Origin: Verrucomicrobiota bacterium
Lineage (GTDB): Bacteria > Verrucomicrobiota > Verrucomicrobiia > Limisphaerales > UBA8199
Direction: 5' to 3'
Assembly: GCA_029974925.1 (NCBI GenBank)
Contig: JARKQH010000146.1
Coordinates: forward strand, 1 to 48,030
Length of the DNA: 48,030 bases
Shown here: piece by piece, positions 34,782 to 38,126 of the stretch
Position numbering within the stretch: the first letter of the stretch is position 1
How the letters are laid out: each line of letters starts with the position of its first letter
The notes under the pieces: generated by a model
Databases searched by the model: none
The model's input: the letters and a program-made list of their open reading frames with translations, nothing else
Told to the model about the DNA's origin: nothing
Program-made: the position numbers and the translations under genes

Positions 34782-37700
34782 TCAACTGCACCCCTGGCTT
34801 TCGCCGCAATTGAGGCATTTGTAGCAGGCGCCATTGCGGACGGTTACGGCGCCGCAATTGGCGCACGTCGGGGCGTCCTGCTGGAAGTGCGCAACGGAAT
34901 CACTGATGTTGGTGATTTTGCGTCCGGGTTGGTGGCCATTGCTGCCCGCCGCGGCGCCTTCGACTTCGACAACGTCGGTGTCTTCGGCGATGGGCAGCTC
35001 GGGGACAGGCCGGTTGACCTTCTTCTTGATTTCCTCCTGCAGGCCCGGGATGGCGAGCTCGGGCTGGTTGCGGTTGGGAGCGTTCTCCTCGCGGTAACCC
35101 GGCACGAACTGGCAGGCGAGCCAGCGGAAGACGTAGTCGGTGATGGAGGCGGCGTTGGGAATGTCGCGGTTCTTGGTGAAACCCGAGGGCTCGAACCGGA
35201 CATGGGCGAACTTGCGGGCGAGGGCTTCGAGCGGAACCCCGTATTGGAGGGCAAGGCTGGTGAGGGTGCCGATGCCATCCATCAGTCCGCCGATAGTGGA
35301 GCCTTCCTTGGCCATGGTGATGAACAGCTCGCCAGGCTGGCCGTCTTCAAACAGGCCGACGGTCAGATAGCCTTCATGACCGGCGATGTCGAATTTATGC
35401 GTAATGGCGGTGCGGGTCTCCGGCAGGCGGCGTCGCGGCGGCTTGGCCGTCTGGGGGGCGAGCCGGCGAACCTCGGCTTCGAGTTCACGGATGCGGGCTT
35501 CGAGTGCGGATTCAGTGGAGCCATCCGCGGCGGAGGACTCGCTGGTGCGGCGGGTGTTGAGTGGCTGGGACCGTTTTGAACCGTCGCGATAAATGGCCAC
35601 GCATTTGAGGCCCATTTTCCACGCCTGAATGTAGGCGTCGCGGATGTCCTCGACAGTGCTCTCCCTGGGCATATTGACCGTCTTGGAGATGGCGCCGCTG
35701 ATGAAAGGCTGGGCGGCGGCCATCATGCGGAGGTGCGCCAGGTAGTGAATGCTGCGTTTGCCTTGGTAGGGCTTGAAAGCGCAATCGAAGACGGGCAAAT
35801 GCTCGGGCTTGAGGCCGCTGCGGATCGTCTGGCCGCCGGCCTCGATGTCTTCAATGGTGTCGTATTTCTCGATGTGGGCCACGATGCCCTCAATTTCCTT
35901 CGGCGAGTAGTTGAGCCGGCGCAGCGCGTCGGGCACGGTGCGGTTGACAATCTTGAGCACGCCGCCGCCCGCCAGAACCTTGTATTTGACCAGCGCAATA
36001 TCGGGCTCGATGCCGGTGGTGTCACAGTCCATCAGGAAGGCAATGGTGCCGGTCGGGGCGAGAACCGTGACCTGGGCGTTGCGGAAGCCGGCCTGCCGGC
36101 CGCGGCTGAGGGCGTTATCCCACACTTTGCGCGCTTCCTGTTTGAGGTAGTCGAACTCCGCGCTGGGTTGAATCGCCTCGACCGCGTCCCGATGCTGTTT
36201 GATGACCTGGAGCATGGATTCCACGTTGTTCGGCGCGAGCGGCTTGGGGACGTGCGCGCACGCGGCGTTGTGGTAGCCTTGGAAGGGCCCAAGCACGGCG
36301 GCCAGCTCGGCCGACTGCTCGTAGGCATGGCCGGTCATGATGGCCGTGATGGCGCCGGCCAGGGCGCGGCCCTCGTCCGAGTCGTAGGGCAGGCCGTAAT
36401 CCATGATCAACGAGCCAAGATTGGCGTAGCCCAGCCCCAGGGTCCGGAAAATGTGCGAATTTTCCGCAATTTCCGGCGTCGGGTAGCTGGCGTTATCCAC
36501 GAGGATTTCCTGAGCGGTGATGAAAAGACGCACGGCGGCTTTGAAGCGCTCAACGTCAAACCGGCCATCCTCGCGCTTGAACTTCATCAGGTTGAGGGAA
36601 GCCAGGTTGCAGGCGGTGTTATTCAGGAAGACGTATTCCGAGCAGGGGTTGGTCGAATGAATGGGTTCGGTGCCCTTGCAGGTGTGCCATTTTTGGATGG
36701 CGCCATCGTACTGGAGGCCGGGATCGCCGCAAATCCAGGTGCCTTCGGCAATCTTGTTCAGCAGCGTGGCCGCGTCCTTCTTCTCGAGCGGCTGGCCGGT
36801 GGTCACCGCCCGGGTCCACCATTCCCTCCCTTCGAGGGCCGCCTGCATGAACTCATCACTGACCCGGACCGACAGGTTTTCGTTCTGGTACATCACGCTG
36901 CCGTAGGCTTCACCGTTGTACGAGCCGTCGTAGCCCTGCTCGATGAGCGCCCAGGCTTTCTTCTCTTCCTTCTGCTTGGCATCAATGAATTCCTCGATGT
37001 CGCCGTGCCAGTCGCGCAGGGTGTTCATCTTGGCCGCGCGGCGGGTTTTGCCACCGGATTTGACCACATTGGCCACCTGGTCATAGACGCGCAGGAAGGA
37101 CAAGGGGCCGCTGGGGCGCCCGCCGCCGCTGAGTTTTTCCTTGCTGGAGCGGATGGGCGACAGGTCGGTGCCGGTGCCGGAGCCGAACTTGAAGAGCATG
37201 GCCTCGCTGTAGGCCAGGTGCATGATGGACTCCATGTTGTCTTCCACCGACTGGATGAAACAGGCGCTGCACTGCGGATATTCGTATTGCGTCCGGCCGC
37301 GTTCGGGCTTGCCGGTTTTGCGGTTGTAGTACCAGTTGCCGCGGCTGGACGAATTGCCTACGTGGTACTGATGGTAGAGCCCTACATTGAACCAGACCGG
37401 AGAATTGAACGCCCCATACTGGTTCAAGCACAGCCAGGCCAGCTCATCGTAGAACACTTCGCCGCCAGCCCGGGTGAAGTAGCCGTCCTTGACTCCCCAA
37501 TCCGCGATGGTCCGGCAGATGCGGTGAATGAGCTGGCGGACGGAGGTTTCACGTTCCGGGGTGCCTTGCTCGCCGTAGAAATACTTGGAGACGACGACCT
37601 TGGTTGCCAGGTGCGACCAGAACTTGGGCACCTCGACGTTCTCCTGCCGGAAAATCACCTTGTTGTTGTCGTCGGTGATTTCCGCCGTGCGCTTTTCCCA

Positions 37701-37874
37701 TTCCACCTGGTCGAAGGGGTTGACGTTCGGATCGCTGAACACCCGCCGGATGGTCAACCGTTTGCGGCCGGCCGGGTCGGCGGCCTTGGGGTTTCGGGAC
37801 GACGCGCCCGGGGTGGAGCGCCGACGGCTCCGGGGAGCAGCAACGGGCAAAACTTCTTCGCTAAATTCAATCAT
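34782..37874 (-). CDS. nrdJ: B12-dependent (class II) ribonucleoside-diphosphate reductase
   Basis: A 1030-residue class II enzyme that makes deoxyribonucleotides using adenosylcobalamin, without oxygen. Signature stretches include NQYGAFNSPVWFNVG, CSACFIQSVEDNMESIM, FKFGSGTGTDLSPIRSS, the active-site region STNPCSEYVFLNNTACNLAS, and VLAPTGTIAFLMDCDTTGIE. The C-terminus carries a four-cysteine zinc ribbon (CANCG, CYKCLNCGE) as in long NrdJ proteins. The length shows no intein. It stands alone on the minus strand, behind a promoter with NrdR-box-like sequences. No cobalamin riboswitch is evident. Confidence 0.96.
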   Translation of the reverse strand: MIEFSEEVLPVAAPRSRRRSTPGASSRNPKAADPAGRKRLTIRRVFSDPNVNPFDQVEWEKRTAEITDDNNKVIFRQENVEVPKFWSHLATKVVVSKYFYGEQGTPERETSVRQLIHRICRTIADWGVKDGYFTRAGGEVFYDELAWLCLNQYGAFNSPVWFNVGLYHQYHVGNSSSRGNWYYNRKTGKPERGRTQYEYPQCSACFIQSVEDNMESIMHLAYSEAMLFKFGSGTGTDLSPIRSSKEKLSGGGRPSGPLSFLRVYDQVANVVKSGGKTRRAAKMNTLRDWHGDIEEFIDAKQKEEKKAWALIEQGYDGSYNGEAYGSVMYQNENLSVRVSDEFMQAALEGREWWTRAVTTGQPLEKKDAATLLNKIAEGTWICGDPGLQYDGAIQKWHTCKGTEPIHSTNPCSEYVFLNNTACNLASLNLMKFKREDGRFDVERFKAAVRLFITAQEILVDNASYPTPEIAENSHIFRTLGLGYANLGSLIMDYGLPYDSDEGRALAGAITAIMTGHAYEQSAELAAVLGPFQGYHNAACAHVPKPLAPNNVESMLQVIKQHRDAVEAIQPSAEFDYLKQEARKVWDNALSRGRQAGFRNAQVTVLAPTGTIAFLMDCDTTGIEPDIALVKYKVLAGGGVLKIVNRTVPDALRRLNYSPKEIEGIVAHIEKYDTIEDIEAGGQTIRSGLKPEHLPVFDCAFKPYQGKRSIHYLAHLRMMAAAQPFISGAISKTVNMPRESTVEDIRDAYIQAWKMGLKCVAIYRDGSKRSQPLNTRRTSESSAADGSTESALEARIRELEAEVRRLAPQTAKPPRRRLPETRTAITHKFDIAGHEGYLTVGLFEDGQPGELFITMAKEGSTIGGLMDGIGTLTSLALQYGVPLEALARKFAHVRFEPSGFTKNRDIPNAASITDYVFRWLACQFVPGYREENAPNRNQPELAIPGLQEEIKKKVNRPVPELPIAEDTDVVEVEGAAAGSNGHQPGRKITNISDSVAHFQQDAPTCANCGAVTVRNGACYKCLNCGESQGCS

Positions 37875-37979: not shown

Positions 37980-38001
37980 CGGGCCTCTGGTGGGAGGCCC
38001 G
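37980..38001 (-). other. Hairpin in the nrdJ leader
   Basis: A perfect eight-base-pair stem (37980-37987 with 37994-38001) around a six-base loop lies in the predicted leader of nrdJ. It has no T tract on either side, so it is more likely an RNA structure or protein site than a terminator. A further 10-base palindrome, CCAGATCTGG, lies at 37944-37953. Confidence 0.5.
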
Positions 38002-38008
38002 TCGCACA

Positions 38009-38060
38009 CCCCATTAGTTGGGGAACATTTTGAACTTATCCACCATATATGGGGTGGCAA
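38009..38060 (-). promoter_or_regulatory. nrdJ promoter with two NrdR-box-like palindromes
   Basis: On the minus strand TTGCCA (38055-38060) and TAAGTT (38033-38038) are 16 bases apart. The spacer is filled by CCCCATATATGGTGG (38040-38054), which resembles an NrdR box. A second box-like element, CCCCAACTAATGGGG (38009-38023), follows after 16 bases, giving a 31-base repeat distance, three helical turns. NrdR boxes occur as such pairs over reductase promoters and repress them. Confidence 0.55.
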
Positions 38061-38126
38061 GGTTTTTTTGAAAAAATTTACGCAAACGTTATTGCCTTGG
38101 AAAAATGGCCGAAAAAGTCCCTGCCA

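Follow-up and report, generated by a model that had tools for sequence, protein, structure and literature searches.

The promoter region of nrdJ in the window (the whole stretch of 48,030 nucleotides that was analysed) very probably contains an operator for the regulator NrdR. On comparative sequence grounds, we place the probability that positions 38008–38055 represent the NrdR operator of nrdJ, formed by a pair of boxes spaced by about three helix turns, at roughly 0.96. This reading draws on the spacing and conservation of the boxes, the promoter-like hexamers that accompany them, an nrdR gene whose product has the canonical DNA contacts, and a box pair upstream of nrdR itself. The nrdJ pair is an ordinary, well-known kind of feature with a minor box-specific sequence bias; it extends a nucleotide-sensing control circuit that is well characterised elsewhere to a poorly cultured lineage, for which the comparative evidence is firm. 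The features concerned are the following:

34782–37874, minus strand: nrdJ, class II (adenosylcobalamin-dependent) ribonucleotide reductase, 1030 aa; NF005122 at 1333.9 bits and TIGR02504 at 550.4 bits, both above cut-off.
38008–38023, minus strand: putative NrdR box 2, CCCCAACTAATGGGGT; GC-rich form, 3' of the -10-like element; from sequence and matrix scan.
38033–38038, minus strand: -10-like hexamer TAAGTT; from sequence, with a spacer of 16 bp to TTGCCA.
38040–38055, minus strand: putative NrdR box 1, ACCCCATATATGGTGG; within the -35/-10 spacer; from sequence and matrix scan.
38055–38060, minus strand: -35-like hexamer TTGCCA; from sequence.
38078–38093, minus strand: conserved upstream element AATAACGTTTGCGTAA, 38 bases 5' of box 1; from a pattern search.

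A single nrdR gene was detected in the genome (191.6 bits; cut-off 124.65), its presence being a check that the preliminary description had proposed for its reading of the nrdJ promoter. The encoded protein contains zinc-ribbon and ATP-cone domains, and nrdR lies on a separate contig (C8) from nrdJ (C472). Across the order, residues D15, R17, R26–29 and R37 are present in all 30 of the full-length NrdRs read, the reading pattern itself having demanded D or E at position 15. These residues are the DNA contacts in the S. coelicolor NrdR structure, according to the available part of PMC9110341, and are also named in that of PMC12176259. NrdJ itself comprises the barrel (PF02867), class II N-terminal (PF08471) and TSCPD (PF12637) domains, and a domain search detected no ATP-cone (PF03477) in it. 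Within the draft genome, which is 97.6% complete, the class I large-subunit model matched only nrdJ, below cut-off, and the search for a class III reductase was negative. To the extent of this search, which covered the class I large subunit and class III, nrdJ seems to be the genome's sole ribonucleotide reductase gene. Since neither of these enzymes was found and NrdJ has no detectable ATP-cone, the sensing of ATP and dATP by an ATP-cone may here reach ribonucleotide reduction through NrdR alone.

On the coding (minus) strand, the region upstream of nrdJ reads CCTTGCCACCCCATATATGGTGGATAAGTTCAAAATGTTCCCCAACTAATGGGGTGTG. As had been described previously, it contains two 15-mers, CCCCATATATGGTGG (38054–38040) and CCCCAACTAATGGGG (38023–38009), each of which begins with CCCCA and whose starts are exactly 31 bases apart, with the upstream one located in the -35/-10 spacer. 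When both are set in the NrdR register, with C at position 4 and G at position 13, they become 16-mers whose starts lie 32 apart and which are joined by a linker of 16 bp; the span originally given, 38009–38060, ends one base before the limit of box 2 (38008). Box 1 fills the N16 spacer between TTGCCA and TAAGTT, and box 2 is probably situated, to judge from its position, at the start of the nrdJ transcript. The pair thus lies at the promoter of a ribonucleotide reductase gene, overlapping the predicted polymerase site. NrdR boxes are quasi-palindromes of about 16 bp with the consensus acaCwAtATaTwGtgt, which box 1 matches at 12 of 16 positions and box 2 at 9 of 16, the fit of the latter being only moderate; both boxes carry C4 and G13.

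Pairs were scored by a matrix scan in place of a simple consensus scan, which had put several of them in the wrong register (e.g. in genomes G011, G021 and G045), and a gapless 58-base promoter model was dropped, as the gap between the -35-like element and box 1 can differ by one base. By the matrix, no other pair in the upstream region of nrdJ, or anywhere in the window, scores higher than the nrdJ pair. With its own row held out it scores 25.5 bits, which is 10.2 SD over dinucleotide shuffles of the upstream region, and none of 100 shuffles reached this score.

The preliminary description had taken the two elements for paired NrdR boxes and had suggested looking for the pair upstream of nrdJ and nrdR in relatives. 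This reading is borne out by a linker of the usual length, a score that beats the shuffles and the presence of nrdR, and the pair recurs at both genes. Within the order (Limisphaerales, or Verrucomicrobia subdivision 3) we searched 58 genomes, namely the window's own and 57 relatives; nrdJ was matched in 53, and 49 upstream regions were read, leaving out those of G001, G012 and G027, in which the gene start is missing, and of G042, for which there was a distant match only. With each row held out of the matrix, 45 of the 49 regions, the window's included, contained a pair that outscored all 100 shuffles. Position counts were taken from the 44 promoters scoring >12, with G047 left out. C4, A6, T11 and G13 of box 1 are invariant in 44/44, an invariance that is partly built in, the rows having been picked by the matrix; in box 2, G13 is found in 44/44 and C4 in 38/44 promoters.

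Two of the four misses, G043 and G031, are without an intact nrdR and speak in favour of the NrdR reading: no nrdR was found in the former, whilst in the latter nrdJ (G031:C10) and nrdR (G031:C46) both look broken by stop codons and there is no pair upstream of nrdJ. In the third, G028, a pair is located ∼600 bp upstream of nrdJ, and in the fourth, G019, no recognisable pair is present in the 6-kb nrdJ locus despite an intact-looking nrdR and nrdJ. A second reductase is matched distantly in G019 as well, at 25% identity. Further irregular cases, which like G019 speak against the NrdR reading, are G047, with a perfect-looking box 1 at nrdJ and no convincing box 2; G010 and G023, which have a pair at nrdJ yet no nrdR found, in assemblies that are 74% and 89% complete; and G013 and G057, in which the best pair is placed differently relative to the -35-like TTG.

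The promoter-like hexamers recur with the boxes. Among 101 distinct pair-bearing nrdJ promoters of the order, TTG is found 4–9 bases 5' of box 1 in 97, and 86 have TANNNT close to where box 1 ends; where both elements are present (84 promoters), the -35/-10 spacer is 16 in 44, 17 in 24, 14 in 13, 18 in two and 19 in one. For named genomes, drawn as the best 80 of 377 relatives, 78 had enough upstream sequence, and 76 of these 78 scored >12 and 73 >18, in a set that overlaps the genomes used to train the matrix. The same matrix was applied to other orders of the class, on which it had not been trained: 27 of 30 nrdJ upstream regions, hand-picked from a longer list and in some cases sharing a genus, outscored every one of 60 shuffles, the spacing being 31–33 in 24 of these regions.

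Upstream of nrdR in the window genome we found the pair CCCCAAGCCGTTGCGT and CCACAATATGTGGCCT, 32 apart, the first box sitting between TTGACA and TATAAA and the second ending 4 bases 5' of the ATG. From this arrangement nrdR appears to repress itself via its own putative box pair. nrdR was matched above cut-off in 53 genomes and 50 regions were read, with G015, G027 and G048 left out. Using the matrix for nrdJ box 1, with the genome under study left out, a pair above all shuffles was detected in 48/50 regions and in the right register in 46/50, these counts retaining G047 and G055, both of which were read one box too far upstream. When the spacing was left free over 20–45, the best value was 31 or 32 in 46/50.

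In order to scan the genome, a 48-position profile was built from 48 of 49 pairs (28 nrdJ, 20 nrdR), all of spacing 32 and with the window genome excluded, after removal of one misregistered nrdR pair. Against the 5.73 Mb genome, with 150 of 296 first-look candidates scored, its single match at E ≤ 10 was the nrdJ site of the window (25.4 bits, E-value 8.9e-5). The nrdR pair of this genome is weaker, with 12.0 bits and an E-value of 0.0011 by the profile within its own 3.4-kb locus, and was absent from the whole-genome results at E ≤ 10 with that same share of candidates scored. No NrdR sites outside nrdJ and nrdR were found genome-wide by the profile at E ≤ 10, a scan that missed the weaker nrdR site as well, such that weak sites could escape it. 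In a pattern search, the window site was the sole match with two mismatches to a 46-base pair pattern, which at ≤ 3 mismatches gave 10 matches versus 19 for a backwards-read control and thus separates signal from noise weakly; a single-box pattern gave 21 matches versus 19 for the control, the window site being the sole mismatch-free match.

A similar arrangement is described for S. coelicolor nrdRJ, encoding a class II reductase, in the available part of PMC9110341: as in the window, a class II promoter carries two palindromic boxes separated by about three helix turns, with conserved G–C pairs in each box and the same DNA-contact residues in NrdR. There, a base-pair inversion at the positions mapped here to C4/G13 of box 1 cuts binding ∼50-fold. 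The window genome differs in that nrdR and nrdJ are on different contigs, each with its own pair, and in that box 2 of nrdJ has the form CCCC..GGGG. According to the accessible text of PMC12176259, E. coli nrdHIEF, nrdDG and nrdAB share with the window 15–16 bp linkers and an overlap with the RNA polymerase site, and the nrdAB promoter oligonucleotide also contains ACCCCCTATATATAGTGT, a box with CCCCC; NrdR controls three ribonucleotide reductase operons in E. coli, whereas only nrdJ was found in the window genome. The 16-bp linker of the window also falls within the range of 15–16 bp that the accessible part of a survey (PMC12051234) gives for most bacteria. This part of the survey text makes no mention of Verrucomicrobia, and its Figure 3 spans ten phyla; our literature search found nothing on NrdR boxes in Verrucomicrobia, and the surveys PMC9110341 and PMC12051234, available in part, may include some.

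By analogy with NrdR of S. coelicolor, E. coli, Listeria and Streptococcus, we infer that NrdR binds at nrdJ, senses nucleotides and represses the gene. Box 1 would occupy the -35/-10 spacer and box 2 would lie at or just past the likely transcription start. Upon a build-up of dATP, NrdR loaded with dATP and ATP would assemble into a DNA-binding tetramer, which would grip each box with a pair of its zinc ribbons and kink the DNA, and RNA polymerase would be blocked, such that nrdJ would remain off until dATP falls.

The preliminary description had further proposed that the GC-shifted form of the boxes is a lineage-specific variant. Positions 3 (C) and 14 (G) are those that separate CCCC..GGGG from CCAC..GTGG. 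Within the order, C3 and G14 are found in 34/44 and 38/44 promoters for nrdJ box 2, in 11/44 and 9/44 for nrdJ box 1, in 22/50 and 5/50 for nrdR box 1, and in only 6/50 and 2/50 for nrdR box 2, which keeps CCAC..GTGG, the nrdR figures again including the misregistered pairs of G047 and G055; in the other orders, the counts are 2/24 and 10/24 for nrdJ box 1 and 10/24 and 4/24 for nrdJ box 2. The proposal thus holds as regards the lineage, with the refinement that the full GC-rich form characterises a single box of nrdJ within a single order, C3 alone being common also in nrdR box 1. With the form limited to nrdJ box 2 and missing from nrdR box 2, it need not mean a changed NrdR specificity, and a single NrdR presumably reads both CCCC..GGGG and CCAC..GTGG. 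How much freedom NrdR tolerates within a box is the small question that this bias raises. We tentatively consider, and hold to be rather doubtful, that nrdJ box 2 has been driven to its GC-rich form (CCCCAAYTARTNGGGG) by selection for a job besides NrdR recognition, making it an operator half with double duty. Candidate second jobs may be C and G runs that satisfy C4/G13 in registers 31 and 32, or a hairpin at the 5' end of the transcript.

Such a hairpin (CCCCA-loop-UGGGG) could also be thought the main role of box 2, stabilising or attenuating the nrdJ mRNA, with NrdR binding secondary. Box 2 would lie close to the mRNA 5' end, and the GC-rich form is lacking from nrdR box 2. Its longest stem, in any register, has a mean of 4.59 versus 4.22 in half-swapped controls (z 4.7), compared with 3.40 versus 3.18 for box 1 (z 1.9), and single-sequence folds gave a local box 2 hairpin in 13 of 16 leaders, those of G005, G036 and G050 being the exceptions. 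Pairing within box 2 in the register of sum 18 is above all 500 column shuffles (0.507 versus 0.473), and in that of sum 15 above 490 of the 500. These shuffles, however, ignore shared ancestry, which may itself produce the excess; pairing in the NrdR register (sum 17) barely surpassed the shuffles (0.685 versus 0.670, a value reached by 35/500), and sum 16 gave no excess (reached by 220/500). Moreover, a search of the window against Rfam gave nothing at gathering score, and the 15–16 bp linker and G13 are retained, as NrdR binding requires. We thus regard a primarily RNA-level role as improbable.

Lower still do we rate the idea that the palindromes are by-products of a conserved sigma-70-type promoter, or intergenic chance. 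Both promoter-like hexamers are conserved in their own right and short palindromes occur frequently, but the strong conservation extends to box 2 (G13 and C4 as above), which is not part of the -35/-10 region, a like pair with like spacing occurs at nrdR, and shuffles fail to reproduce it; the shuffle tests at nrdJ and nrdR, together with the genome-wide profile match, exclude chance. It is equally hard to credit that another dimeric regulator binds the nrdJ and nrdR sites. A second conserved element is found close by, and NrdR binding in this lineage is a prediction from sequence; against this, NrdR fits the spacing, C4/G13, the occurrence of the pair at both nrdJ and nrdR and the lack of one in G043 and G031.

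The neighbouring conserved element is represented by the pattern AATAACGNTNGCGTAA, which with ≤ 1 mismatch was found at -38 to -41 from box 1 in 26 of the 101 pair-bearing promoters counted above, in 10 of them free of mismatches. The window copy is the only mismatch-free match in its genome; at ≤ 2 mismatches there were 9 matches versus 12 for the control. About where this element sits, G050, G022 and G052 (L012, L017 and L029) have TGTGAATAA, which we take to be a DnaA-box-like site. DnaA controls nrd genes in E. coli. DnaA-box-like sites were present in 9/44 nrdJ upstream regions (shuffled mean 0.98, maximum 4), in 3/50 nrdR regions (shuffled mean 0.34, maximum 2) and in 0/29 control stretches; none was found at the place of the upstream element in the nrdJ region of the window. 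Finally, the nrdJ leader of the window contains a strong hairpin, GGGCCTC..GAGGCCC, 3' of box 2 (37981–38000, minus strand), and single-sequence folds gave hairpins resembling it in the nrdJ leaders of several family members.
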